DNA of 64,000 nucleotides, taken from positions 1-64,000 of the IMG/VR virus record IMGVR_UViG_3300045256_000058; one strand, written 5' to 3'. The stretch is from a virus. Of this stretch, positions 2,338 to 52,728 are shown in pieces. The notes below the pieces were generated by a model. The model saw nothing but the letters and a program-made list of their open reading frames with translations, made no database searches and had not been told where the DNA came from. The stretch's first letter is position 1; each line of letters begins with the position of its first letter. A program made the position numbers and the translations under genes.

Positions 2338-4031
2338 TGAACGTAAAAGCACTAGCACCTCTTGACTTTAATGTTGAGAGTTATTCAGAAATATTTAAGG
2401 CATATAAAGAAGACCTTGAAAATTACATTCAATCATTTTCAGGGAAAAGAGATGATGATACTCAATATGCTAAAGATTATTTTCTAAGCAAACTGACTGA
2501 AAGATGGCAACCTATATTAGATTTTAATCAAAATAGAATTTTACGAGATATTCAAGAGCTTCAAACTCCAAAAACAGAGTTTATTGCCTCTCTTGGATTA
2601 AAAGAAGCTCTAGCTCACTATAAGCCTGCGGGTGCTTGGTTGATTCCAAATCTTCTAAGAGCGCATGGTGCTATGTATCTATTAGGTGGTGAACCTAAAG
2701 CTGGTAAATCTCTATTGGTTAACTTTCTAATCTACGGTGTTGCACTTTCAGGAGAGTTTCTTGGAAGACCTGTAAAGACAGGAAACGTATTGTATATTCA
2801 GTTAGAAGAAAGTCTAGACACTATCGGTGAAAGATTGTTTCTAGCTGGATTCGGTGATATTACAGATGAAGATACCTCAATGGTAGTCAACTTTGGTCAC
2901 TTAGAAGAAATATCAAGAAAGGTTCAAATAGAAAGAGTCTTTGATATTACCAGTGACTTAGATTGGCTCATTAAAAAGATTCAAGAAGTAAAACCAGCAT
3001 TGGTAGTTGTAGATAGTTTAAGAGCGGCTAGTGTCAAGTCTAGTGCCTCTGAGAACTCAAATGAATTTGGTAAGCTTGTAATCTCTCTTCAACAAGTATT
3101 TAATGTTACGAATACTTGTGGTGTCGTAATTCACCACATGAGCAAGTTAGGTGGTAGAAATGTCAAGAAAACCTCGCTAATTGAACGGTTAGCTGGTCAT
3201 ACTTCTATCTCAGCAGCTTGTTCTGGGATTATTGGTATTATGTCTGAGGAAACTCAAACAGGAAGACTTATGACTCTTAAGACTCTTCCTCGTAATGGTA
3301 CACCTTTGACTCTTACCTATCAAATTAAGACTTCCGATGAAGGTCTATGGAAGTTAGAAAAGCAATGGGAAGATACTCCTATTAACAGTCCTTTTACATC
3401 TAAAATTCTACGTTTTCTAGCTAACAATCCAGACGAGTATTATTCTCAACGTACTCTTGCAAAAGAAATTGGTGTAGAGCTTAGTAACGTTGACTTTAAG
3501 GAAGCATTGCTCTATCTGCAAAACAGTCAAATTATTACTAAGAAGTATCAGAATAAGAAGTTTCATTATTCACTACCTTCAGATTCTCTATGGATTGTAA
3601 ATCCTCAATCTGTAAAGCAAATGTGTGATAACGAAACTATTATCGATGCTAACAATATGGTTCGTTGTGGAGATAGAGAAACATTACGTTCTCTTGTGTC
3701 TATGTGGTCTAAAGAACGTCAGCTTAAAGCTACTGAGGTTCTATTAGCTGAAGAAAGAGCAAGAATTAAACAGCTAATGTGTAGTTGGGAATATGAAGTA
3801 GGTGATGTAGCTCTATACGATGGTGTTAAAGTCACTGTAAAGAGTAAGCATAGTGCTAGTCCTAGTTTGACTCGTAACGAATATGTGATTGATTTCTTAG
3901 GTGAAGATACAATTGTTTCTGAGCAAGCATTGTCACCTGTTTCTATCGTTGCTGAAGAAGTAGAGGATGATGAAGAACTTATTCTCATTGACACACCTAT
4001 TGCTGAGGAAGAATTAACTTTTGAACTGTAA
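2322..4031 (+). CDS. RepA/DnaB-like replicative helicase (RecA-fold ATPase)
   Basis: The 569-residue protein has a Walker A loop GGEPKAGKS at residues 122-130, a Walker B VVVDS at 228-232 and a downstream GVVIHHMSK element near 267-275, matching the AAA_25/RepA-type hexameric helicase family. A putative winged-helix segment lies near 355-420. The C-terminus is acidic (DDEELILID), as in SSB-like interaction tails, which may recruit other replication proteins. Translation could start at 2322 or at a second ATG at 2328; both overlap the primase end, suggesting coupled synthesis. It presumably unwinds DNA ahead of the phage polymerase. Confidence 0.8.
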   Translation: MPMSVVNVKALAPLDFNVESYSEIFKAYKEDLENYIQSFSGKRDDDTQYAKDYFLSKLTERWQPILDFNQNRILRDIQELQTPKTEFIASLGLKEALAHYKPAGAWLIPNLLRAHGAMYLLGGEPKAGKSLLVNFLIYGVALSGEFLGRPVKTGNVLYIQLEESLDTIGERLFLAGFGDITDEDTSMVVNFGHLEEISRKVQIERVFDITSDLDWLIKKIQEVKPALVVVDSLRAASVKSSASENSNEFGKLVISLQQVFNVTNTCGVVIHHMSKLGGRNVKKTSLIERLAGHTSISAACSGIIGIMSEETQTGRLMTLKTLPRNGTPLTLTYQIKTSDEGLWKLEKQWEDTPINSPFTSKILRFLANNPDEYYSQRTLAKEIGVELSNVDFKEALLYLQNSQIITKKYQNKKFHYSLPSDSLWIVNPQSVKQMCDNETIIDANNMVRCGDRETLRSLVSMWSKERQLKATEVLLAEERARIKQLMCSWEYEVGDVALYDGVKVTVKSKHSASPSLTRNEYVIDFLGEDTIVSEQALSPVSIVAEEVEDDEELILIDTPIAEEELTFEL

Positions 4032-22895: not shown

Positions 22896-23693
22896 CTATT
22901 CTAGGTTATTCCAGTCGTCTTCAGTCATGCTATTCCATATATCAATACTAACATCATTCCACGTAATTGAGCCTAATCCACCCAATAGTATGTTTGAAAT
23001 ATCGACTAACTGAGCATTAGTAATCTTAGGAATAAATACTAGAAAATAACACAATTTACCTGTAAAAGGACTACCCGCAGTATTGTCATTACCTAGATAG
23101 AAAAGATATGGGTCAAAAGTAGGTAAATATCCTTTATTGCTGTTAATAAATCTATCGAATGTAGCACTATTTACTGAGAAATTAGTAATACCTAGTTTTA
23201 CATCGTGATTAAAAATAATTGATTGAGATACTGTTGTTCCAGTAGTCAAATCCGATATATTAGATGTCGCTTTTTCGGCTCCTACATTTCGAATAGCAAA
23301 GTTTTGCACTGCTTTAAGAGTATTTAACTTGTAATCGAGTACATTCGGATAAGTAGATAGCCTGTTTCCAATAGTCAATAACTGCTGAGTAATACTTACA
23401 TCAGTTTGAGTGATAAATAGTGTTGAATATGATTTAGCATTAGCAAATAAAGACCTATCTACCGGATATAAACGGTCATTACTAGAAAAAGATACTCCTT
23501 TACCGAGTATAGATGGATGATACGCACTATTCGATTGTACGAAATCATATTGAGGATAGTCTACTGTATTTTTCCAGTAAAAATTAGTACCTGAGATATA
23601 CAATTTACTACCATTTCTACCATCTAAAAATACTTTGCAAGGTAGATTGTTATCGCTAATATAATCTAAGACTTCTGCTGTCGGTGATGGCAT
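22896..23693 (-). CDS. putative LamG-like virion surface protein
   Basis: A 265-residue beta-rich protein with low charge; the pattern around residues 30-75 and the FNHDVKLGITNFSVNS ... FTGKLCYFLVF segment near 165-215 resemble concanavalin/LamG-type jelly-roll domains seen in its neighbours. The last 30 residues are Trp/Asp-rich (WNDVSIDIWNSMTEDDWNN). Its start overlaps the end of the RuvC gene by 28 bases, so the two are co-transcribed. The fold call is tentative. Confidence 0.5.
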   Translation of the reverse strand: MPSPTAEVLDYISDNNLPCKVFLDGRNGSKLYISGTNFYWKNTVDYPQYDFVQSNSAYHPSILGKGVSFSSNDRLYPVDRSLFANAKSYSTLFITQTDVSITQQLLTIGNRLSTYPNVLDYKLNTLKAVQNFAIRNVGAEKATSNISDLTTGTTVSQSIIFNHDVKLGITNFSVNSATFDRFINSNKGYLPTFDPYLFYLGNDNTAGSPFTGKLCYFLVFIPKITNAQLVDISNILLGGLGSITWNDVSIDIWNSMTEDDWNNLE

Positions 23694-24133
23694 ATTGCTA
23701 CTGCTGCTGCGTCTGCTTCGTGAGAACTTCTAAAGCCTATTCGAGGATTTTTGTTAGCTTCAGTTACATATTTAATTATATCTTCCTTTGTAGCCCTGCC
23801 ATTACCTGTAACTTGTTTTTTGATAGTAGTCGGAGCATATTCAAATACTTTTACTTCGTGTTTTTCGGCGCTATATTTAATAAGACCTATTACTTCGAGA
23901 GTTCGTATATTTTTAGCTAATGTAACCGGACTGAAAAAAGGTTTTTCTATCGCATAACAAAAATTAAAGTTTTCCTTGAAAAAAGGTGGGATATTGTCAA
24001 GTACTTCTACAAATTCAGTATAGGTTTTAATTTTGTATTCATAAGGTTGTAGAAACTCATCTCTTTCAGGACAATAACCGCAAATTCCAATATGTTGAAC
24101 TCCAGGGTCTATACCCATTATCATTGTATTCAT
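23666..24133 (-). CDS. RuvC-like Holliday junction resolvase
   Basis: The 155-residue protein shows the RuvC/RNase H fold signature: GIDPG near residues 7-11 with the first catalytic Asp, AIEKPFF near 69-75 with the catalytic Glu, GNGRATKEDI near 120-129, and HEADAAAVA near 143-151 with the last acidic pair. It would cut branched DNA before packaging. The ATG at 24133 is chosen because the 16 residues upstream from 24181 are hydrophobic and lie in the divergent promoter gap. It is unusual in lying among tail adhesin genes. Confidence 0.85.
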   Translation of the reverse strand: MNTMIMGIDPGVQHIGICGYCPERDEFLQPYEYKIKTYTEFVEVLDNIPPFFKENFNFCYAIEKPFFSPVTLAKNIRTLEVIGLIKYSAEKHEVKVFEYAPTTIKKQVTGNGRATKEDIIKYVTEANKNPRIGFRSSHEADAAAVAICHHRQQKS

Positions 24134-24144
24134 GTTATATAATA
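24134..24144 (+). promoter_or_regulatory. GTTATATAATA promoter-like element
   Basis: This 11-mer lies in the 46-base gap between divergent genes (RuvC on minus, a 54-residue gene on plus) and is repeated exactly on the minus strand at 53672-53682. It contains TATAAT about 36 bases before the plus-strand ATG. No -35 is evident. GTGTACAC, a short palindrome, follows at about 24150-24157 and may be an operator. Confidence 0.42.
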
Positions 24145-24179
24145 GTGGTGTACACAACGACAATAATATCACTAAAATC

Positions 24180-24344
24180 ATGAAGCTTAAGTTAACACCA
24201 GACCTAAAAAATGCTCTTAGAGGGCAACTCGCTTCGATTATTCTGGATGTTATGTTAGACGGTTCTTTAGATACTCCTGACGTAACAGCTACAGCACTTG
24301 AAACTCTTGCAGCAGAAATTAGAAAGCAAAACGTAAATGGCTAA
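24180..24344 (+). CDS. small hypothetical protein
   Basis: A 54-residue protein starting MKLKLTPDLKNALRG, mostly helical with an acidic middle (DVMLDGSLDTPDV). The ATG at 24180 is chosen because the upstream in-frame ATG at 24132 lies inside the RuvC start region. It overlaps the next plus-strand gene by eight bases, forming a three-gene plus-strand unit that ends with the 1,089-residue adhesin. Small partners upstream of adhesins can be assembly factors, but that is a guess. Confidence 0.55.
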   Translation: MKLKLTPDLKNALRGQLASIILDVMLDGSLDTPDVTATALETLAAEIRKQNVNG

Positions 24345-24695: not shown

Positions 24696-27600
24696 ATGCA
24701 TAGACACTATAGAGATTTGTATGGAATTCCTATTCCAAATACATACTCACATAAGCTCATAGACCCTAGTGCTAGTGAGAATTTATTTTATGAGTCTCTA
24801 TATGATTCTGTCCCAGTTAGTGCTACAAATGGAAGTTTAGATACTACTCATTACGTTATTAATTCATCTTCTGTAACATTTACTAATGGTTATTTAGACT
24901 TAGGTACTATTCAGTTAGAAAACAATTGGACATTAGATGGTTGGTTCTACTTAACCACAGATGTAACGCCAATTTTCTCAATTAATGGAATATTTTCTAT
25001 CGAATATGACCAATCCAACTCTGAATTTGTAATCAAAAGAACTCTTTATGATTCAACAAGTGAGACTCGATATTTATCTTGTACTTTAGCTCTAAATGAG
25101 TGGCATTTTATTAGTTTTGTACGAAATTTTAATATACTTAGTCTTTACGTAGATTTAGTATCAGTAGTAAATATTGATAACTTTTATTATCCTATTGCTG
25201 ATGGTCAAGCTTATGTTGGAAAAGTTGCAAGTAATACGTTTACTGGTAATTTAAGCAATATTCGACTATTAAATCAAGCTTTGTATCCAGTACTAAATAC
25301 TGAAATAGTAGAAGGTATTAAGCACCCTTATTTTGAGTCAAATAACTCAAATAAATACGAAATTATTCATCTTAAGGATAAAGAGTACTGTAATGGAGGG
25401 TTGATTTATCCCTTTTCTAACATTAACAATACTTTTTATGATTATCTAAATTCAAGATGGACTATATCTCCTTCTTCTATTAATACTTCTTGGTTTACAG
25501 GAAGTAATGGACTTGTATTAACACTTGACCCAGGAATAGAGATACCAATTTATTACACATTGGAATTCAGCTTCTCCTTACCTGTAAATGTAAGTAGTAA
25601 TGTTGTTCTATATGCTCAATGGCAATCGAGTGTCTATAGAGGATATTATTTTCTATATGACAATATAGACGGTAAAATTAAATTCGTTTATTATAAACCA
25701 GAATTAAACACTATTGAGACAGTAATTGTTGGTAATTATGTACCTAATTCAACTAATTACATAGCGCTACAACGAATTTCATCAGGATTTGAAATATATC
25801 TAAATGGTGCTAGAACAGTTACCTCTTCTTATGCTTTAGGAAAGCCTCTATCACATACTCACCGATTTAATACAAATGTAAATAATGTAGTTGGTAATTC
25901 TAACCTTTATCTGTATGAATTCATACTTTCAAATCTTAAAAAATACGAGTTTGGATATTTTCCATATCAAGATAACTTTAATTATCAAAAAGTAATACCT
26001 GCTACACTTTCATATCCGTATCATCAAATAGTAGACCCTTTTAAGAATACATTTACTACTGCTATTGACTTTGATTTAAGTGGTAGTAGCTCAATTAGTC
26101 CTGGAGATACAAATGTTTACACTATCTCACAAAAAGGTAGATATAAGTATCCGATTACATACAATATTTACGTCTTATTCGAGGATTTAGATGAGTTATC
26201 AGGAATTGACATTACTAAGCCTAATAGTGTTATTGTTTCTGCTGGTAATGTAGGTACTACTTTTACACTTGAATTAGCTAATTATGTCACTAACCCATAC
26301 AAACGTAGCTTTACAGTAGTTGTAGTTAGTAAATTTGCTAGAAAAAATGTTTATGTCGAGATAAATGATTCTCGTACTTTAGCCCTAACACCGATTACAA
26401 GTATCTCAGGATACGTAGACGGATATTTAACCTCTCAATCAACTGTTTCTGGTACATTACCTAATCTCGCTAATACTCATAACGGAACTACAAGTGCTAC
26501 TAGAAAATCAAGTAATTCGTATGGTTATATCTACCCTCTCACTGATACTGCTGATGCAATTACTATTCCCGAAATAACTGGAATCAAAACTATTGTATTT
26601 TTGTATCGAGAGCTAGTAAATACACCGAGTAGGAGCTATATAGGTCATACAGATTACTACACGCTTAATGGTGGTACTACGTATGAGCTAGTAGGAGCCA
26701 GACAACTTATTACTAATGACTTTATACAAGCAATTAATTTAGAATATCGAGCATCGAGAGTCGAGATTTCAGGTAATGACTCTACTTTTATTGTGTTTGA
26801 TGATAATCTAAATAAACTGTATCTTTATGAAAAAGATTTAACTGGTGCATGGAAATCTACACCTTCTGAAATTGTTCTTGACCTAAATGATACTAATTTA
26901 TTGCAAGAAGCTGCTCTTTCAATTACTAATGACGGTACTATCTTTGCACTAGGTATGAAGAATGGAAATGATGGTGAAGGAGTAGTTCAAATCTGGAGAA
27001 AGACAGGAGATACTTGGACTAAAGACCTTCATCTTGGAAGTCCTGTACCTGCTCCCTATCAAGGTGGTTTCGGACATTCAGTTTCGTTATCAGAAGACGG
27101 ATTGACACTATTTGTCGGAGAAATAGGTTCTAACGCAGTTTATGTATTTGAAAAGAGTACATTGTGGTCTGCTATACCTACAGAAACATTTTTAGGAGAT
27201 TTAAGATTTGGTTTTTCCATCGATACTAATGAGGATGGGACATTATTGGTAGTTACATCAGTAGATGCAAATAGTCTTGATGGTGAAACTCATATTTATA
27301 GAAAAACAACAGGATGGGCAGAAGAAGAAGTACTAAATTACGGCTCTATCTGTAGACTTAACGAAATTACAGAGAAATTATTAATTAGTAACTATCTACA
27401 GTCAGAAGTAAGACTATACGAGAAAATAACGGGTACATGGACACTAATTACTACCTTAACGTCTGCTACTCCTAACTTTGGATATTCAATTGGATTAAGT
27501 CAATCATCTAATATCTGTATTGGTAGTCCAGATGAAAGTAAACTATATCTTTATAAAGAAAGTGATACATGGACAGTACCTCTACAGTTTTCTAACGAAA

Positions 27601-34117: not shown

Positions 34118-37100
34118 TTAATCTTTCGAATACGGCAATAAGGGTGGTAAGAATTCAGTAATGTATCTTGCCACTCCTTTTGTTATGCGTAATCCAGTAA
34201 TATAACCATAAAAGTGACCAATACTGTATCCAATGTCAAAATCAGTACTAAATCCCACGTTTCTAACTTTATCCTCTAACTTACCATTTACATATAGATA
34301 AGTATATTTAACTGTGTTGACTATTGCAATATGTAGCCACTCATTTGTGTCTATGTCTTCTGCAATAGCAGGTAGAGTATAGTTGTCATTTTTGTATAGT
34401 CGAATCGTACTTTCTTCAAGGAAGTAATAAAGCTTAGGATAGCTGTTATTACTAAGTAATCCTGTTAATACTACTCCTTGACCCGGATGTAACGTAGTAT
34501 CTGAAGTATCTTCATCGTCACTGTAGACTTGAGACAATCCGTATTTTAAGTTACCTACTACCTTATAAGGAACAACAGTGAATCGGGTATCGTAATTATA
34601 AAGTTTAGAACTAAAATTAGAATCCAATGCTACATCAATTACATAGCCTATTTTATCCGTATTGTTATAATCCCAATCAAATGCAAATCCTTTTGGAGCA
34701 ATAATCTTAGCTTTATTAGCTTCTGGTAAAAATGCTAATTTCTCACTAAAAATATTAAACGAAGTAGTATCACCAACGTAGAGATTCTTATAGCCAGGTA
34801 CAAATGTATTAAAACTACTCTCCATTGCTACATCTAAAGTATACCCATTTGCTTCGTCTACTTCATCCCAATTAGCATCAAATGAGTTAGAAGTAACACT
34901 GGATGCTGGTAAAGCTGTTGGTCTAGCTAATCTAAACACTGTAGAGCTTTTACTATTCATATAAAACTCAATCGTATATTCTGAGTTGCTTTGAAGAGTA
35001 TCACTTAGATTAAAAGATAGCGAAGAATCTTTACCGTTAAAATAAATAGATTTAGCCAATCCAATTGGACTCGTATCATTTACGACACTTACATTAGTAG
35101 CTGTAATATCAAGATTATGAATCGATTCATCGACAATGTTTACATCTTCTGGTTGTAGTAATACAAGTACATTTGAGTAATTAGTATCAGGAATATAATC
35201 AGGTACTTCTGCTGCTCTAGTTAAAGATGTACCAGCCGTATTATATGTACCTGCTAAATCTTGAATAGTATGAGTAGGTAATTCTACTGTTACATCCCCA
35301 GTGCTTAAAGCAGTTACATAAAAGCTATATTTAGACTCATTAGGGTATTTAAGAAGATTACTTACCTTACAATTTGTGAGGGTTAATTTATCTAATGTAA
35401 ATAACTGTATTGGCTCACTAAATGTTAGTAGTACAGGAAAAGTATAAGAGTTATCATCCGGTTGACTTGTACTTAATGTTGCAGTAACACTGGTATTGTC
35501 TATAAATACGGCACTATTGTTAGTAGTTGCAGTAAATGTTTTATCAGGTATTCCTGGTTGGTCACTAATTGCGATACTGAAATTGCATTGACCATCACTA
35601 AAACTATCTGTAATATCAAGGGTTGCAATGTATTCGTTATATGGCTTTGCAACTACATCTGCTGTATGACCTGCAATCAATACCGTTGGTAGACCTACTA
35701 ATGGAATAATAGATGTGAACTTAAGTGTAATTTTATTACCTGCTGTTGCTACTGAAGAAATATTGTTATTTGAGTATATAGAGATATAGCTAAGTAATTG
35801 TGTCTCATCTGTAATATTCGGTACTTCTTCAAATGGTAATCCTGGCACATTTACTGAGTATGCAGTATATAATGCTTTTCCGAGAGTAAATCGAATGTTA
35901 GAAATGAAGAAATCTACATCATCTACCCGATTTGGATAATATCCAATAAATAAATCACCTTTAGTAATATCGATTGCAGTATTACTTTGAACAATACCCA
36001 CTCTAATACCATTTCGATAAAAACGATACACATTATCTTTTTTAGTAATTGCAAAATGCGGATATTTACGAAGCTGGCTATACGAGTCATTATCCCAAGC
36101 AATAAAATCTGTAGTATCCCGGTCATTCCATGTAATAGAAGGAAATAAATTGCTTATGTTTGTAGCACTACGTTGAAACTTAAGTTGTCCGTTATCAGCA
36201 AATAGAGCAAAACCAGTCTGAGCATTTTCTACTGATAGAATATGAGATTTTTTAGTTGTTGTATTTTGTGTAGAGTTAATTCGTAAAAAGAACTCTATTG
36301 TCCAATCTTGATTGATAGCAGTAGTATATGTGCTTGCTACCGCATTAAAATTGTCATATGTTAGCCCACTTTGTTCAAGTAGTGGACTTACAGCTAATGA
36401 AGATGTCTCACCTAATGGAGCAATTGCATTAGAAAATGAAGTGTTATTTGATATAACCTCAAATAATAATAATTTTGAAGGACTTAAATCATTCAGTGTC
36501 GTACTTATTGATAGCGGAGTCTGAAGTATTGGAAATGAGTCTGAGTAAATACGAACAAGAGGAGCCGATTTTGTTGAAAAAATACCAGTTGATGTACTTG
36601 CACAACCTTCCATTACTTGTACAATTACTGGGTCTTGTTTAATAGGTTCAATATCTAATTCATAAATATGATTGTCTTCATCAATAAATCGAAGCTGAGA
36701 TAACTTACCATTTACAATGCCAATCTTACTTGGGTCAAAATTGGCAATTGCGGCATCAAATCTAAGAGTAACCGTAAAGATGTCTGCGATATAAGGTGAA
36801 CTTCCAGAGCTTAAAAGCGGTACTGGTGCATTCTTATTAACTCTATATGCCTCGCCTTCAAAACTTAATTCTCCTATAGCATAAGAAATATAAGTATTTG
36901 TATCCGCATATCTAACTGTTTTTCTATCTACAAAATTTGCTTGTAACGTACCATTTCCAGTACCCGTACTTGCTTTAAGAGAATAAACATAATTATTTAT
37001 CTTTGTTAAAGATGTAAGACTTGCTCCTGATATACCATCTAATTGAGTGAGACTAAAATCTGCAAGAACTAGATTATCTATTGGTTGAGTCACATAAACA

Positions 37101-45220: not shown

Positions 45221-48200
45221 TTACACTCCTCTAGCGTATTTTAGGAGTTGTTGAGACATCTGAGTACTTGTAATTTCAAGTCCTTTATTAATTTGTGTTT
45301 TAACTTGATTTGTAATATCGCCTAGTTTTGCAGCATCTTCTTTGCTTACATTAATATTGACTTGAACATTAGGACTTAAAGCTACGTTGGGTGATGATGT
45401 ACCTTGTGTAGCAGGATTAGAATTAGGTAGCCCTCTTAATCCTCCACCATCTCTAATTGAGTTAAGAGTATCAAGCATTTGACCGAAACTTTTATCTTGA
45501 CGTAATGGAGTTGAATCATAATTAATTTCTTTACTATTACGTAGAAGATTCTTAGTATCCAACAGTGCTTCTTTTTGTAAATCAAAATTAGCAGGACTAC
45601 GATTTTGACCTAGAATACCCAATCTATTCTTAGCACCTTCTCTACGAATATTTAGTTCTGTTAAGTCTTGATTAGTAAATACACTGTCTATCTTCTGTCT
45701 GTTTAGCTGTTGTCTAGCAGCAGTGAACTGTTGACCTTCCTTAAATGCAGCAGGTAAACCTTGTAATTGTTTTTTAATTTCATCAGATGCATTAAATTGT
45801 GCTTTACCGCCTGATGCAACACTAACTAAATCACTTAACAATGCTGTCTGAGTAAGCGAATTCTCATAAGCTTTTTGTTCTAACTCAAGCTGTAAATCCA
45901 TTACTTTTAAGTCAATAATTTCTTTCTTAGACTCAGTACGACTTTGGGCTAATTTAATCTTGTCATCTTCTTTAGATTGCTTTACATCTAAACGTTGTTG
46001 GACGATATTAGCAGCAGGATTATTCTGACCTAGAAAACCAAGTAATCCAGACTGTAGTGAAGATATTGATTTGTTGTTTTCAGAGGCTACTTCACGTTGC
46101 TTTTGGTCAAAATCCAATTTATCTTTGAATAAGTCAGCTTGCTTACCAATCTTGTCTGTTACTTCAGCTACTCTAGAAGCAAATACTGTTAGTTTTTGAT
46201 TTACAGTTTCTAATGCTAGACTTTGTGCTGCTGCTGATTTTTGAGCTTCACCTTCTACTCTTGTTCTTTCCGCAATTGCTTGAGCTTCACGTACAGTCTC
46301 ATCAGAAGCGCCACTTTTTTTAATACCCTCTGCCGCTTTTTGTGCTGCATCAATACGTGCATCTATTGTTCGTACTTCTTTATCATATTCCGCACCAGGC
46401 TTATTTAGAGAAGCTGTAGCAGTAGTAGAAATGCGGCTTAGAGTAGAACCAACACTTGATGTCTTAAATAAACTTCCAGCAGTAGATGATAGATTGTTAA
46501 AGCTAGTAATTACTCGTTCATTTGCTGCAATTTGATTATCTCTAACTTGATTTTCTTCTTCAATCTTTAATGCTGCGGCTTCTGCTGCTGCATTTACTTT
46601 CTTTAGTGCGGCTTCAGTTTTAATTGAAGAAACTTCGCTAGGTAACTCTTTCTTTGCGGCATCTAATGCTTTACCAATTTGTTCAGCTTGCTCACCACTT
46701 GCAGAAGCTAGAGCATCTTCTAATGCTTTTACCTTCGCATTAGCCTTATCGATAGCTTGATTTGCTTCTGTATCAATTTGTCTATCTGGATTCTTAATTT
46801 GAGTAGCTAATCTCTTAAATCCACTTGAGGCAATTGAGCCAGAAAATAGTGAGTTACTAGCTAGTGATTCAAATTGGTCAGCAACTTTATTTGTTTGCTC
46901 AATCAATTTGTTTCTAGCTGCGTATTCTTCATCTACTGATGCTGCTGCATTTTCAAGTGCAGTTGATAGTTTTTGAGCTTGTAACTCAGCTACTTTTGAT
47001 TGCAATTCAGCTTTTCTAGGTGCAGCAGTTGCAGGGTCTTCTAATTCTTTTTTAATGTTGTCAATTTGAGCAGTTAGATTCTTTTGTAGAAGTTCATCTA
47101 ATTGCTTTGTTAACCCACCTCTTGCTACTCCACTAGACTTAAGTACATTTAGAATAGCTGTGTCTGAGGATTGTTGAAACTGTAGAACACTTTGATTTGC
47201 TTCAGTAATTGCTGTCTTTAATTCTGTATATCTCTTTCTAAGTCCTGGGTCAGAGGCAAGTAACTTATTAAAATCAGCACCAGCAGCATTTAATGTACCT
47301 TCTAAATCAGAAAGTAGTTTGTTAGCTGATGCAGGGTCTAGAGATACTTGTGTTTCAATAGCTCCTAGTGAATTACTAATTTGAGGAATTAAATCATAAA
47401 ACTTACTAGGGTCAAGTAATTTACCGCTAAATACCTCACTAGCTTTCTTTCCTACATCAGAAATTTGAGATAGAACAGCAGATTCATTTTGCTTAGATAT
47501 ACTTAATGCAAGAGGTACGCTAGTATCAATAGAATTAAACTTCTTAATTAAGTTAGTACCTAGTGTAGCTTTTAATCTTTCCTCTCTAAATTTCTTTTGC
47601 TGTTCAACTTCACCTTTAGTTACTTTTAACGCAGCTTCAGCATCGGCAATATCTTTTTGACCACCACTAGCTTTGGCAGCATCATATTTTTGTTGAGCAA
47701 TTGCTACTCTCGCATCAAGTAACTCTTTTTCTAACCCAAGTTCTTTTTGTAGAGCTTGTTCATCTTGAGGTGTAATAATTTGACCTTTATCTAACTTAGC
47801 TTTAGCTGCTGTACCTTCAAGACTTAACTTACCCGAACCTGTTTCTTTACCAGAGAAACTGCTAATCTTGCTATTTAATGCTGTTTGAGCTTTATCTGCT
47901 TCCGCAGCTACCATACCGTACTTAGCCATTCCTCCAGTTACAAATCGCATAGAGTCACTGAAGTTTTTACCTACTTGTCCTGCAAAGTCTAGAAAACCAT
48001 TACCTGTCTTTGCTGTTGCGCTATTTAATCCTTCTAAATCATCTGCTAACAGTTTTAGATTAGGTGAGCTATCTAAAATTTCTTTATTTAGACCATTAAT
48101 AGCTTCACCCATAGCTTTGATGTTAGGGTTGGTACTCTTGTTCAGCATTTCACTAAACGTGCTTGCCCAACCAGTAACTACTTGGATACCAAAGGCAGCA

Positions 48201-50554
48201 GCAATACCAACTACACCTAATCCGGCTAATCCTTTTGCAACTACTCCAATACCACCAGCTAAACCTTTCATTACTGCTCCGCCAGCTTTAATAGGAGAGC
48301 TACTTAAAAATTTAGTTAGACCTTCAGGTGCTTTTAACGGTACAGATAGTGATTGATTTAGAAAACCACCAATACCACCTTTAGATAGAACATCCTTTTG
48401 ACTAGATATTAATTTACTTGCAGATTCTCTTACTGACCCTGCTCTATCACCTAATCCTTCGCGTAATGATTTAGCTCTAGCGGAAAAACTTTCCTTAAAG
48501 TCAGAAATAGCACCACCAGCTCTATCTTTGAAACCACTTCTCATGGCTTTAGATTGAGCCGCTTTTACCTTCTTAGACTGAGCTTCTTCAATATCTTTAA
48601 TATCACTTTCAGAAAAACCAATATCTCGATACTTTTGTTTTTGCTTATCTACACCGCTTTCTAAATCTCTTACAAAATCAGGATTAGAATAAGTACTATC
48701 TTCCAAGTCTTTTACTAAATCACCAGATTGACCTTTCTTAGGATTAAGTAATTGTTCTTTATCTAAATCTCTTTGCTTCGCTTTTGCATACTCAGGTGTT
48801 TTAGCAGCCGCAGCAGTAAATTGTTGCTCAAATGATGTTCGGTCAAGCTCACTTTGAATCTTTCTAACTTCAGCTACAGCTAACTTTGCAGCTTCAATAA
48901 TCTTCTCTTTAATTGTAGTAATCGATTCAACAGCTTTACGTTTGATAGTATCCCAGATACTTTCTCCGTCCTTTCTCGCATTACCAAAGGTCTTCTTAAA
49001 TTCTCCTCCAATCTTGCCAATTGCGGCGATTAATATTAGAGGAGCAGCAGCGCTAAACACACTTCCAAAGAAACCACCAATAGCGCTAAATTTAGTTTGT
49101 AGTCCTTGTAACGCACCAGCTACTTTACCAATACCCTCAGCAGCACCAGTAGTAAATGCTTCGGTAACTTCATTAGTTTTTGCAATACTCTCTACTACCG
49201 AAGGTGCAACTCCTTTACCAAAATCTTCTACACCCTCTTGAGATTTAATTCGAGCTTGCTCAAAAGCACCAGTAACAGTTTGACTTCTACCTTTTGCTTC
49301 TTCTTCTAACTTACCTGGGTCAGCTTCTTTAATTTGACCAGAATATTGTTGAAGAGTTTTCTTACCTAACGAACTAAACAATTGCACAGCTTCGACTGAC
49401 ATTTGATTAGTAAAGATTTTTTGAATATTTTCAGGTCTACCACCAGTAGCCTTTTGAAGGTCATCAAGTACTCCAGCTAATCCTTTGTCTTTTAGAACAG
49501 TGGCATTAATTTGAATTGGTTTACCAGCCTCATCTCTAAACTTAGAGAGATACAGGTTGGCTTCTTGTGAACCAGCAGTAATATCACTTAGTAAGCTGGT
49601 TAAACGGTTAGCAGCTTCATCAGCACTTACCCCCTGTGTGGTTAAACCAGCGATAGCTCCAAGCATTTCAGAGAAATCAATACCTAGTTGTTTCGATTGA
49701 ACAGCAAGTCCACCAACACTAGGAGTTAATTGGTCAAGAGTAAGTAGACCAACTTTTGTAGTTTCAAATAACTGAGCCGCTCTTTTATCTGCTGCTTCTG
49801 AACTATCTCCTAAAGCTCTTAAAGCTCTAACTACAGCATTTGTAGAACCACCTAAGTCACCGAAACCAGCTTGACCTAGATTAATAGCAGCTTTACCTAC
49901 GTTTAGATTATCTTTCTTGTTACCAAAACCAGCAGAAGCAATATCATATTGAGCATTAAGAATTTGTACAGAACCTAATGCATCATTAGTAGCTTTTTGT
50001 AGCTCTTTCATTGACTTGATATTTTTATCTATCGAGTCAATACTCTTTTCATTTCCTGTAACGCTAACAGTACCTAAACGATAAGCAGCTTGTTCTACAT
50101 CGGCGTATGCCTTTACTGATTTAGCAGCAAACTTATTGAAATTATCATTATCAAATAGAACACTAAAACCTTGTTGAATGCTACCAATTACACTATTAGA
50201 TGTCGCTTCTAGTGTTTCTAAATTATCTTTAAGCTCACTGCTACCTTGAATAGCTTCTTCAAATGTAACGGTTTTAGTAACACTACCAAACTCTTTCCAC
50301 GCTTTGAATCCAGCCTCACCAATCTTGGTAAGTACATCGAGTTTGAAAGATATGTCAGAAAGGGCTAGTAATGTTCCTACTACACCCTTTGCAGATACTC
50401 CAATAACTTGTAAAGATTTACCAAATTTATCAGCACTATTAGAAGCTAGTTTGAATTGTGCTGTTGAGATTTTTAAGTCAGTATTAAGACCCTTAACACT
50501 TTTTTTAATATCAGTTAAATTTTGGTCTAAATCAAGTAATAATGATGCTGTCAT
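45221..50554 (-). CDS. tail tape measure protein
   Basis: At 1,777 residues this is the largest gene in the window. It is dominated by helix and coiled coil (Ala/Lys/Glu/Gln-rich), with two hydrophobic segments near residues 490-525 (FGSVFSAAAPLILIAAIG) and 755-795 (GLGVVGIAAAFGIQVVTGW), the hallmarks of a tape measure protein. These set tail length and insert into the host membrane during DNA entry. At about 0.15 nm per residue it would measure a tail near 265 nm. The frameshifted chaperone pair directly upstream confirms the identity. No peptidoglycan hydrolase domain is seen. Confidence 0.9.
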   Translation of the reverse strand: MTASLLLDLDQNLTDIKKSVKGLNTDLKISTAQFKLASNSADKFGKSLQVIGVSAKGVVGTLLALSDISFKLDVLTKIGEAGFKAWKEFGSVTKTVTFEEAIQGSSELKDNLETLEATSNSVIGSIQQGFSVLFDNDNFNKFAAKSVKAYADVEQAAYRLGTVSVTGNEKSIDSIDKNIKSMKELQKATNDALGSVQILNAQYDIASAGFGNKKDNLNVGKAAINLGQAGFGDLGGSTNAVVRALRALGDSSEAADKRAAQLFETTKVGLLTLDQLTPSVGGLAVQSKQLGIDFSEMLGAIAGLTTQGVSADEAANRLTSLLSDITAGSQEANLYLSKFRDEAGKPIQINATVLKDKGLAGVLDDLQKATGGRPENIQKIFTNQMSVEAVQLFSSLGKKTLQQYSGQIKEADPGKLEEEAKGRSQTVTGAFEQARIKSQEGVEDFGKGVAPSVVESIAKTNEVTEAFTTGAAEGIGKVAGALQGLQTKFSAIGGFFGSVFSAAAPLILIAAIGKIGGEFKKTFGNARKDGESIWDTIKRKAVESITTIKEKIIEAAKLAVAEVRKIQSELDRTSFEQQFTAAAAKTPEYAKAKQRDLDKEQLLNPKKGQSGDLVKDLEDSTYSNPDFVRDLESGVDKQKQKYRDIGFSESDIKDIEEAQSKKVKAAQSKAMRSGFKDRAGGAISDFKESFSARAKSLREGLGDRAGSVRESASKLISSQKDVLSKGGIGGFLNQSLSVPLKAPEGLTKFLSSSPIKAGGAVMKGLAGGIGVVAKGLAGLGVVGIAAAFGIQVVTGWASTFSEMLNKSTNPNIKAMGEAINGLNKEILDSSPNLKLLADDLEGLNSATAKTGNGFLDFAGQVGKNFSDSMRFVTGGMAKYGMVAAEADKAQTALNSKISSFSGKETGSGKLSLEGTAAKAKLDKGQIITPQDEQALQKELGLEKELLDARVAIAQQKYDAAKASGGQKDIADAEAALKVTKGEVEQQKKFREERLKATLGTNLIKKFNSIDTSVPLALSISKQNESAVLSQISDVGKKASEVFSGKLLDPSKFYDLIPQISNSLGAIETQVSLDPASANKLLSDLEGTLNAAGADFNKLLASDPGLRKRYTELKTAITEANQSVLQFQQSSDTAILNVLKSSGVARGGLTKQLDELLQKNLTAQIDNIKKELEDPATAAPRKAELQSKVAELQAQKLSTALENAAASVDEEYAARNKLIEQTNKVADQFESLASNSLFSGSIASSGFKRLATQIKNPDRQIDTEANQAIDKANAKVKALEDALASASGEQAEQIGKALDAAKKELPSEVSSIKTEAALKKVNAAAEAAALKIEEENQVRDNQIAANERVITSFNNLSSTAGSLFKTSSVGSTLSRISTTATASLNKPGAEYDKEVRTIDARIDAAQKAAEGIKKSGASDETVREAQAIAERTRVEGEAQKSAAAQSLALETVNQKLTVFASRVAEVTDKIGKQADLFKDKLDFDQKQREVASENNKSISSLQSGLLGFLGQNNPAANIVQQRLDVKQSKEDDKIKLAQSRTESKKEIIDLKVMDLQLELEQKAYENSLTQTALLSDLVSVASGGKAQFNASDEIKKQLQGLPAAFKEGQQFTAARQQLNRQKIDSVFTNQDLTELNIRREGAKNRLGILGQNRSPANFDLQKEALLDTKNLLRNSKEINYDSTPLRQDKSFGQMLDTLNSIRDGGGLRGLPNSNPATQGTSSPNVALSPNVQVNINVSKEDAAKLGDITNQVKTQINKGLEITSTQMSQQLLKYARGV

Positions 50555-50563
50555 TTATGAAAA

Positions 50564-50959
50564 CTACTCATTGTTAGAATCATCGTTAGAGAATATGTTT
50601 TCAGACCGCTTTTTAATTTGCCATAAGTTAAACTTGTCAGAAAGATGTTCCCATTCATGTTTTCTGTAGGAAATATCATCTAAAAACTTATTAAACTTAG
50701 TATTTTCAGCTACTTGTAATTTATCCTCTGGATTAATTCTACCACTACTAGCAATATCAATTAACTCCCGACACTTCCAGTAATCGAGAGTTTTAACTAG
50801 CGTCATCGCATTTTCTGCGTAGTAGCTTAATAGAGATGAGTAAAGAAGAGAAATACCCTCATAATTATTTGAATGTAAATTAGGGTAATTTAACTCTGTT
50901 AACGATTTTCTTTTTCTTTTTCTTTTTCTTCTTTCAGTATCGCTAGATACTTGTTCCAC
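50564..50959 (-). CDS. tail assembly chaperone, frameshifted C-terminal part (GT-like)
   Basis: A reading frame of up to 131 codons in the -1 frame relative to the upstream gene, overlapping its last 61 bases. The first residues (ERRKRKRKRKS) are an artefact-like readthrough of the AAAGA repeats; the useful part starts near LTELNYPNLHS and is helical. In lambda-type tails the T extension is made only by -1 frameshifting and recruits tail tube subunits to the tape measure. Its own start at 50959 lacks a visible ribosome binding site, so I treat it as the 3' half of a frameshifted product. It ends nine bases before the tape measure start. Confidence 0.68.
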   Translation of the reverse strand: MEQVSSDTERRKRKRKRKSLTELNYPNLHSNNYEGISLLYSSLLSYYAENAMTLVKTLDYWKCRELIDIASSGRINPEDKLQVAENTKFNKFLDDISYRKHEWEHLSDKFNLWQIKKRSENIFSNDDSNNE

Positions 50960-51372
50960 ATCTCCATGTACGGTAAAAAATGGAGTTGACTAATCTTACA
51001 TGGGGACATTGAAGTTAGATTTCGACTTTCTTCATTAATATCACCATTAAAGAATAGAGAAATAAGTTGTTCCCAGTTTTCTTTAATTAAATCATAGTCA
51101 AGATATTGTGTTTCTCCTGACTTAGTTTTTTCAACTAAAGGAATAATAGAACAAATGGCTCTTAAATCTGCTTCGAGGTCATCTCGATACTCAGAAGTAA
51201 AGTATTTACCGATTGCACCATCTGCCATTACATATCTTTCTACTAGCTTATCTTGTAAATCCATAAGCTTGTCCATGTCTTCAGCAGCGCAACGCATTAT
51301 ATTGACTACTTTGCCATCATCATATACAACTTTTTCAGTCTTGTAAGATGGTCTTGATTTTGTCGTACTCAT
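50899..51372 (-). CDS. tail assembly chaperone (G-like)
   Basis: A 157-residue mostly helical protein ending in an EEKEKEKENR repeat. It is immediately upstream of the tape measure region, the conserved position of the lambda gpG-type chaperone. Its last codons run through an A-rich repeat where ribosomes can slip -1 into the following frame, giving a fusion of about 270 residues. It binds the tape measure in known systems. Identity rests on position plus frameshift layout rather than sequence motifs. Confidence 0.7.
   Translation of the reverse strand: MSTTKSRPSYKTEKVVYDDGKVVNIMRCAAEDMDKLMDLQDKLVERYVMADGAIGKYFTSEYRDDLEADLRAICSIIPLVEKTKSGETQYLDYDLIKENWEQLISLFFNGDINEESRNLTSMSPCKISQLHFLPYMEMWNKYLAILKEEKEKEKENR
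50905..50935 (-). promoter_or_regulatory. probable -1 programmed frameshift site
   Basis: The minus strand reads a run of GAAAAA repeats ending GAAAATCGTTAA, with the 0-frame stop at 50899-50901. The next open frame is exactly -1. The last A-GAA-AAT heptamer, or A-AAA-GAA, could allow tandem slippage; neither is a perfect X-XXY-YYZ site. The purine-rich repeat can itself act as a Shine-Dalgarno-like stimulator. Confidence 0.55.
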
Positions 51373-51733
51373 CGTATATCTCAGTCTTTCCGATATTCAT
51401 CATCACGTTATCATTACTGAAAGAGAAGGTTCCTTTATATCCATATGACTCACTCGAAGTATTTGTTTTCATTAGGCTTGCTATATACAAAGTATCAATT
51501 GTGTAGTCAAATGTTAGCAAATAAGTAAATATAGAGAAGTTGTAAGTTAGAGGTAATATTGAGTCTAAATAAGAACTTACTCTAAATTCAATCATGTTTT
51601 TAAGGTTCTTCCTTTCATCCTCTATAGTAGCATAAATGTCTATAGGGGCAGGATATGTGTATTTATGCCCCTCATGTGTCTCAACAAATATATTGCTAAT
51701 TGCTTTGTAGTGTTTATCAAATACGTGTATCAT
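51335..51733 (-). CDS. hypothetical tail-region protein
   Basis: A 132-residue protein with alternating hydrophobic strands (YLDSILPLTYNFSIFTYLLTF) and an acidic end. It overlaps both neighbours (38 bases with the chaperone gene, 17 with the 197-residue gene), giving a tight operon between the tail tube and the tape measure. A tail morphogenesis role follows from place only. Confidence 0.5.
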   Translation of the reverse strand: MIHVFDKHYKAISNIFVETHEGHKYTYPAPIDIYATIEDERKNLKNMIEFRVSSYLDSILPLTYNFSIFTYLLTFDYTIDTLYIASLMKTNTSSESYGYKGTFSFSNDNVMMNIGKTEIYDEYDKIKTILQD

Positions 51734-52310
51734 TCGAATACTTCAATTTGGTTGGCATTACAATCTTTTTACTCCAATCTACTTGTTGTTCCCATTCAAA
51801 GTATTTAATATCTTGATGTTTAAGAAGATTGCATACATCTCTAAACACCATACAAGCATATTTATGAGTATGTTCATGCTCTTTACCTAGAAAATCATAG
51901 AGTTTGTGATAGATGATATTTGATTTATAGTTTCCATCTTTATCTACCCATCTTGATGCTTCTAATACTGTAATAGAGTGACTAGGCTCTCCGTATTTAA
52001 TTCTACGTGCTTTCTTCTCTCTACTTTTTGGGTCAATAACAACTTGATTGTCTAATAAACCCAAATAGTCAAGACAAATGTGATAATCTTTTTGATTATA
52101 TACTTTGTTTCCTTTAATTACTGGTCGAGGAGTAAAAATATACGTCATTACAGCTCTAGGTGTATCTCTTTCAACTAATTTAAGTTGACCATAAACCCCG
52201 TCAAATGTATCTATTACTGCATACGGCTTTTTTTTGGTACTAAGTTTCTTAGACCAAAGGACTCTTCGTATCCAATCTAAAATATCTAATAGAATTTGAT
52301 TAAGCTGCAT
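51717..52310 (-). CDS. hypothetical tail-region protein
   Basis: A 197-residue basic protein, Lys/Tyr/Trp-rich (RRVLWSKKLSTKKKPYAV), with mixed alpha/beta pattern and several His and Cys late in the sequence. It overlaps the 132-residue gene and follows the membrane protein gene by 15 bases. No domain is recognised; the context suggests tail or head-tail assembly. Confidence 0.5.
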   Translation of the reverse strand: MQLNQILLDILDWIRRVLWSKKLSTKKKPYAVIDTFDGVYGQLKLVERDTPRAVMTYIFTPRPVIKGNKVYNQKDYHICLDYLGLLDNQVVIDPKSREKKARRIKYGEPSHSITVLEASRWVDKDGNYKSNIIYHKLYDFLGKEHEHTHKYACMVFRDVCNLLKHQDIKYFEWEQQVDWSKKIVMPTKLKYSNDTRI

Positions 52311-52325
52311 TTAATTACTCTCTAA

Positions 52326-52721
52326 TTATTTATTATCCTCATCGTCATCATCCGCAACCTCATCTTTTTCAGCACGTTTCTTTAATCGAATTGTGGTTTC
52401 AGTACGCTCTTTTGAGTCAGTGTACATTTTTACACCAACAGCAACAATACCACCACCTGTAACGATAGTAGTTAGAAACTTTTCTGCTAATTCATCTTGT
52501 TTTTTATTATCTAACGCATAGAAAGCACCACCAACTGCGACAAGTGCTAATCCTAATACAACTACATCTCGTAATTTATTAGCAATAGGCAATATTTCTT
52601 GTACAATAGCTTTTCTAGTACGTTGTAATTCTCTGCGGACTTGCTTTTGCTCACCTTTAATTTCTCGTAATAAGGAAATTATCTCGGTTTTCTCTTCGTC
52701 CATATTATCAATCAATTCCAA
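52326..52721 (-). CDS. small membrane protein with N-terminal coiled coil
   Basis: About 131 residues. Residues 5-45 form a charged coiled coil (EIISLLREIKGEQKQVRREL), followed by two hydrophobic segments (VVVLGLALVAVGGAFYAL and TTIVTGGGIVAVGVKMY) and a charged acidic tail. I favour the TTG at 52721, nine bases after GGAG; TTG at 52727 and ATG at 52703 are alternatives. Its ribosome binding site lies inside a perfect stem (52729-52757). It could be a holin-like or tail-associated membrane protein; position in the tail block leaves both open. Confidence 0.5.
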   Translation of the reverse strand: MELIDNMDEEKTEIISLLREIKGEQKQVRRELQRTRKAIVQEILPIANKLRDVVVLGLALVAVGGAFYALDNKKQDELAEKFLTTIVTGGGIVAVGVKMYTDSKERTETTIRLKKRAEKDEVADDDDEDNK

Positions 52722-52728
52722 AAACAAA

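Follow-up and report, generated by a model that had tools for sequence, protein, structure and literature searches.

A predicted -1 frameshift at a conserved T6 heptamer in the putative tail assembly chaperone gene of a relative of Pseudanabaena phages

Introduction

A -1 frameshift in the tail assembly chaperone pair is a known phage device, described for lambda and SPP1. The slippery site of lambda is G_GGA_AAG. In lambda G/GT the programmed shift takes place late in the upstream chaperone ORF and results in a longer fusion (PMC5009743). For SPP1 17.5/17.5*, a -1 frameshift at UUUUUUC was predicted in a chaperone pair located before the tape measure gene (PMC6316719).

What is new here is a cyanophage member. 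The locus lies in a stretch of 64,000 nt (the window) contained in a 146-kb record of a freshwater virus, which is a relative of phages infecting the cyanobacterium Pseudanabaena. The closest precedent is the pair of the Bacillus siphovirus SPP1, which has the same arrangement and a U6 heptamer; the two are likened by arrangement and site, not by protein homology. They differ in the last base of the heptamer, which is C in SPP1 and A in the window, and in that the window lineage is cyanobacterial. With lambda the window shares a gene pair before the tape measure gene and a predicted -1 shift toward the end of the first ORF. In contrast to lambda, the window pair has a T_TTT_TTN site, a long overlap past the slip site (45–141 nt from the heptamer to the stop of the first ORF) and no profile match to chaperone families. 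Direct homologues with the same T_TTT_TTN and the same -1 phase are present in the Pseudanabaena phages PA-SR01 and Pam2 (MT234670 and ON014754), but there the pair is annotated as two separate hypothetical proteins. The main text of the PA-SR01 and Pam2 papers mentions neither a frameshift nor a chaperone.

Materials and methods

Relatives in phage records were retrieved by tblastn, which gave PA-SR01 and Pam2 at 40% identity. Single-sequence searches of viral contigs with the first frame of the pair (ORF1) gave no match, and those with the second (ORF2) matched 14 residues only in the viral contigs L002 and L003, probably by chance. Since single-sequence searches of viral contigs were unproductive, profiles were needed, and further relatives were obtained by profile searches of viral contigs and bacterial genomes. 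Some entries were grouped (the nearly identical L010 with L018, L019 with L020, L021 and L022 with L025, and L006 and L007, which lie on the L015 contig). This left 11 distinct relatives: L004/L005 (PA-SR01/Pam2), L015, L016, L017, L018, L020, L023, L024, L025, L027 and L052. The last two were fetched after the hypothesis had been formed and were used as held-out checks; of the two patterns used to find L027, one included LHFLP, whereas the site lay outside the patterns used for L052. The distant relative of the chaperone pair in L052 is located at 3001–3722 (PHFO01000056.1, cyanobacterial MAG M5B4). This contig was binned with a cyanobacterial genome and probably represents a prophage, or else a phage that was binned along with it.

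Results

Organization of the locus

The features of the locus are as follows.

51335–51733, minus strand: upstream gene, 132 aa, unknown function (open frame; PA-SR01 and L006 have a similar ORF in this position)
50899–51372, minus strand: ORF1, 157 aa, putative gpG-like tail assembly chaperone, zero-frame product (open frame; homologues in PA-SR01/Pam2 and viral contigs; weak AF2 neighbours)
50990–50992, minus strand: last TAG stop in the -1 frame ahead of the heptamer (-1 frame open from 50989)
50974–50980, minus strand: slippery heptamer T_TTT_TTA, zero-frame codons CAT TTT TTA, most likely -1 site (phase, conservation in 11 relatives, synonymous-conservation peak)
50905–50934, minus strand: purine tract AAA GAA GAA AAA GAA AAA GAA AAA GAA AAT (A_GAA_AAR absent in 7 of 12 sequences)
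50564–50974, minus strand: -1 frame after the predicted shift, 136 aa and stop, putative gpT-like C-terminal part of a 269-aa fusion (stop-free stretch, conserved core, no conserved start)
45221–50554, minus strand: tail tape measure protein, 1777 aa (PHROG tape measure families to 4.6e-18; Pfam PF10145 2.4e-17)

The tape measure gene directly follows the ORF1/ORF2 pair, and the order in PA-SR01 and Pam2 is identical. As described in a preliminary description of the locus, ORF1 is a frame of 157 codons ending at 50899 (TAA at 50901–50899, minus strand), with a run of GAA and AAA codons (50934–50905) ahead of its stop, and the second frame is exactly -1 relative to it and located upstream of the tape measure gene. 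This second frame had been placed too short: it is open from 50989 to 50564 (minus strand), 30 nt further upstream than the opening previously given at 50959, which is merely a GTG codon. Counting the stop of ORF1, the two frames overlap by 91 nt rather than by the 61 nt implied by an interval of 50899–50959, and the fusion, expected at about 270 residues, was computed at 269. The ORF2 homologues, which share the conserved core LLSxYxENxxxLxxxLDYW, are in -1 phase to ORF1 in all 11 relatives; loss of this phase had been named beforehand as evidence against a frameshift. The lambda G/GT-like shift before the tape measure that the preliminary description had proposed is well supported by these relatives.

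The heptamer T_TTT_TTN is conserved in all sequences

The preliminary description had placed the shift in the purine repeat and called it an unusual variant, with no perfect X_XXY_YYZ. A canonical T_TTT_TTA is present at 50980–50974, 15 nt upstream of the interval that it had considered. T_TTT_TTN was found in the same phase and at the same codon position in 12 of 12 sequences (the window and its 11 relatives), and in ten of them (the window and nine relatives) the overlap has no other X_XXY_YYZ; L027 and L052 additionally contain an overlapping TTTCCCG or AAATTTT. The six T's are invariant, and the last base is A, G, T or C across the 12 sequences. The codons at the site are CAT TTT TTA in the window, CAT TTT TTG in most relatives, CAT TTT TTT in L015, CAT TTT TTC in L027 and AAT TTT TTG in the distant L052, encoding HFLP, HFFP or NFLS. 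As both the last base and the amino acids vary, conservation is stricter for the six T's than for the protein motif. To the known cases this adds one of a U6 heptamer that is kept while its last base runs through all four letters.

When nine ORF1 sequences were aligned by codon, no run in the body of ORF1 showed stronger synonymous conservation than CAT-TTT-TTR, and TTG occupies the site in most relatives although it is a rare Leu codon (3–15%). Further conserved synonymous sites were located near the ORF1 start of the relatives, including one codon pair in the overlap with the 132-aa gene, whose end shares 38 nt with the ORF1 start (51335–51372); these are as expected for dual coding with the upstream gene. 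Codon bias alone could yield T_TTT_TTN in single AT-rich members; its joint probability from codon bias was 9e-6, with eight clade representatives treated as independent. The putative gene set of the window contains four in-phase T_TTT_TTN sites, and a RuvC-like gene accounts for two of these; the argument for the heptamer is hence one of conservation rather than rarity. A second T_TTT_TTA, at 50501 (plus strand), belongs to an ORF that overlaps the tape measure gene in antisense.

The -1 frame is open downstream of the heptamer

In none of the nine sequences tested did the -1 frame contain a stop on the way from the heptamer to the end of ORF1 (19–45 codons), whereas 0.6–4.3 stops per sequence were expected from synonymous resampling. 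The resampling probabilities of finding no -1 stop were 0.003–0.4 each; their product, 3e-18, is indicative only, as the sequences are related. Over the same stretch the +1 frame has 1–3 stops. The -1 frame upstream of the heptamer has 8–21 stops within ORF1, the last of them 7–34 nt ahead of the heptamer. The -1 frame is protected from stops far upstream of the purine tract. This is the deciding comparison between the two candidate sites, and it favours the heptamer, as slippage at the tract itself has no need of such openness.

The tract is probably merely a charged linker. It may be considered as a second slip site in the window, with two sites ∼50–70 nt apart feeding one fusion, which we regard as very unlikely; if true, the proportions of short and long chaperone would be tuned by this arrangement. 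Less probable still is a -1 shift at the tract itself (A_GAA_AAA or A_AAA) near the ORF1 stop, which would give a K/E-rich junction and again a fusion of 269 aa. The window tract holds three A_GAA_AAA sites, A_GAA_AAR also occurs in L015, L016, L004 and L027, and an A_AAA or A_AAG tetramer lies close to the ORF1 stop in 10 of 10 sequences (the window and nine relatives). However, A_GAA_AAR is absent from seven of the 12 sequences (L018, L017, L024, L020, L023, L025 and L052), all of which have T_TTT_TTN, and L052 has no A_AAR of any kind after the heptamer. Re-pairing from GAA to AGA in the P site would also be poor, and a shift at the tract leaves unexplained both the invariant T6 and the 19–45 stop-free -1 codons that follow it.

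ORF2 has no conserved start

Without a frameshift, ORF2 would be a separate gene with its own start (the GTG at 50959 in the window). An in-frame GTG with GGAG 2 nt ahead is indeed present, and PA-SR01 and Pam2 are annotated with a separate 74-aa gene. At 2 nt the GGAG is too close to make a good ribosome binding site, and the GTG is not conserved. A conserved ORF2 start, which the preliminary description had listed as contrary evidence, was not found in the relatives; ORF2 of L016 has no ATG, GTG or TTG at all, and the first start in L017 comes 233 nt beyond the ORF1 stop. In L004, L018 and L017 the first start is inside or past the conserved core. We consider a separate gene highly improbable, below either reading of the purine tract as a slip site. 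Least probable of all is programmed transcriptional realignment, in which RNA polymerase would slip on T6 and add one extra U to give the same fusion: a homopolymer of 6–7 T occurs at the site in every relative, but six T's are short for polymerase slippage, and transcriptional slippage would not call for the tandem-slip phase T_TTT_TTN that every relative retains.

The annotated 74-aa proteins (PA-SR01 34378–34599, L004 3603–3824; Pam2 26425–26646, L005 3603–3824) are truncated, as the conserved frame starts upstream. The annotated ATG of PA-SR01 would cut the N-terminal part off the conserved core, and the Pam2 start likewise lies inside the core. In both phages ORF2 is probably translated solely by way of a frameshift, as the C-terminal part of a fusion. 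For the poorly annotated PA-SR01-like cyanophage lineage this names likely tail chaperone genes among what were hitherto hypothetical proteins, and it revises how ORF2 should be read.

Predicted frameshift and its products

A programmed -1 frameshift yielding a fusion of 269 residues is strongly supported by the sequence comparison, and ORF1 and the overlapping -1 frame very probably constitute one recoded tail assembly chaperone gene with the shift at U_UUU_UUA (50980–50974). Phase, heptamer and conservation can be read directly from the sequences; from them we infer that slippage occurs, and that its rate would be a minor one. The majority of ribosomes would translate ORF1 to 50899 and produce a short chaperone of 157 aa. 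A minority would slip back by one base on U_UUU_UUA, with the tRNAs on UUU and UUA re-pairing with UUU and UUU, and would continue in the -1 frame to 50564. The resulting fusion would consist of 133 zero-frame and 136 -1-frame residues. For the window phage and a shift at T6, the predicted tryptic junction peptide is ISQLHFLTVHGDVEQVSSDTER (or ...HFFTVHG...); in PA-SR01 and Pam2 the junction would join the zero-frame LHFL to the -1-frame ALRD. If the two products act as gpG and gpGT do in lambda, the tape measure protein would be coated by the short form, and recruitment of the tail tube protein would fall to the C-terminal part of the fusion.

When the 70 nt following the heptamer were folded in the window and eight other sequences, no conserved 3' RNA structure emerged. 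The window had the only notable z-score (-2.5), and those of the other eight ranged from -1.2 to +0.6. A conserved Shine-Dalgarno stimulator upstream of the site was likewise not seen by eye. Both negative results count against a shift at the heptamer, as does its distance of 45–141 nt from the ORF1 stop.

Profile searches of ORF1 and ORF2 against PHROG and Pfam gave nothing significant; three ORF2 members had a weak match to an unannotated PHROG. The AF2 model of ORF1 was of medium confidence (pLDDT 69). Its first two matches in BFVD were weak: a mycobacteriophage tail assembly chaperone (E 0.006) and a Burkholderia phage tape measure chaperone (E 0.03). Against the PDB, Foldseek returned nothing below E 0.1 for this model, and the HK97 chaperone 2ob9 was a weak match (Z 3.1, rmsd 5.3 over 87 residues). 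The ORF2 model (pLDDT 60) had no meaningful fold matches. The structural neighbours of the ORF1 model are supportive of a chaperone role, not conclusive, and it is mainly the gene order, together with the lambda paradigm (PMC5009743), that suggests this role.

Neighbouring genes and further observations

A candidate tail tube or major tail protein ORF of 279 aa (53627–52788), with no family match, sits in the expected place upstream of the pair. Between it and the 132-aa gene are two genes of 197 and 133 aa (51717–52727); genes of similar size are found in L006 and are absent from PA-SR01 and Pam2. Tape measure proteins act as rulers, with ∼0.15 nm of tail per residue. The PA-SR01 tape measure of 1918 aa, as calculated from the annotated coordinates, and its tail of ∼300 nm (PMC10286775) fit this ruler. 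Elsewhere in the window, the gene at 23669–24181 (minus strand), judged by eye from its translation to resemble a RuvC-type Holliday junction resolvase, has T_TTT_TTC as both of its in-phase heptamers.
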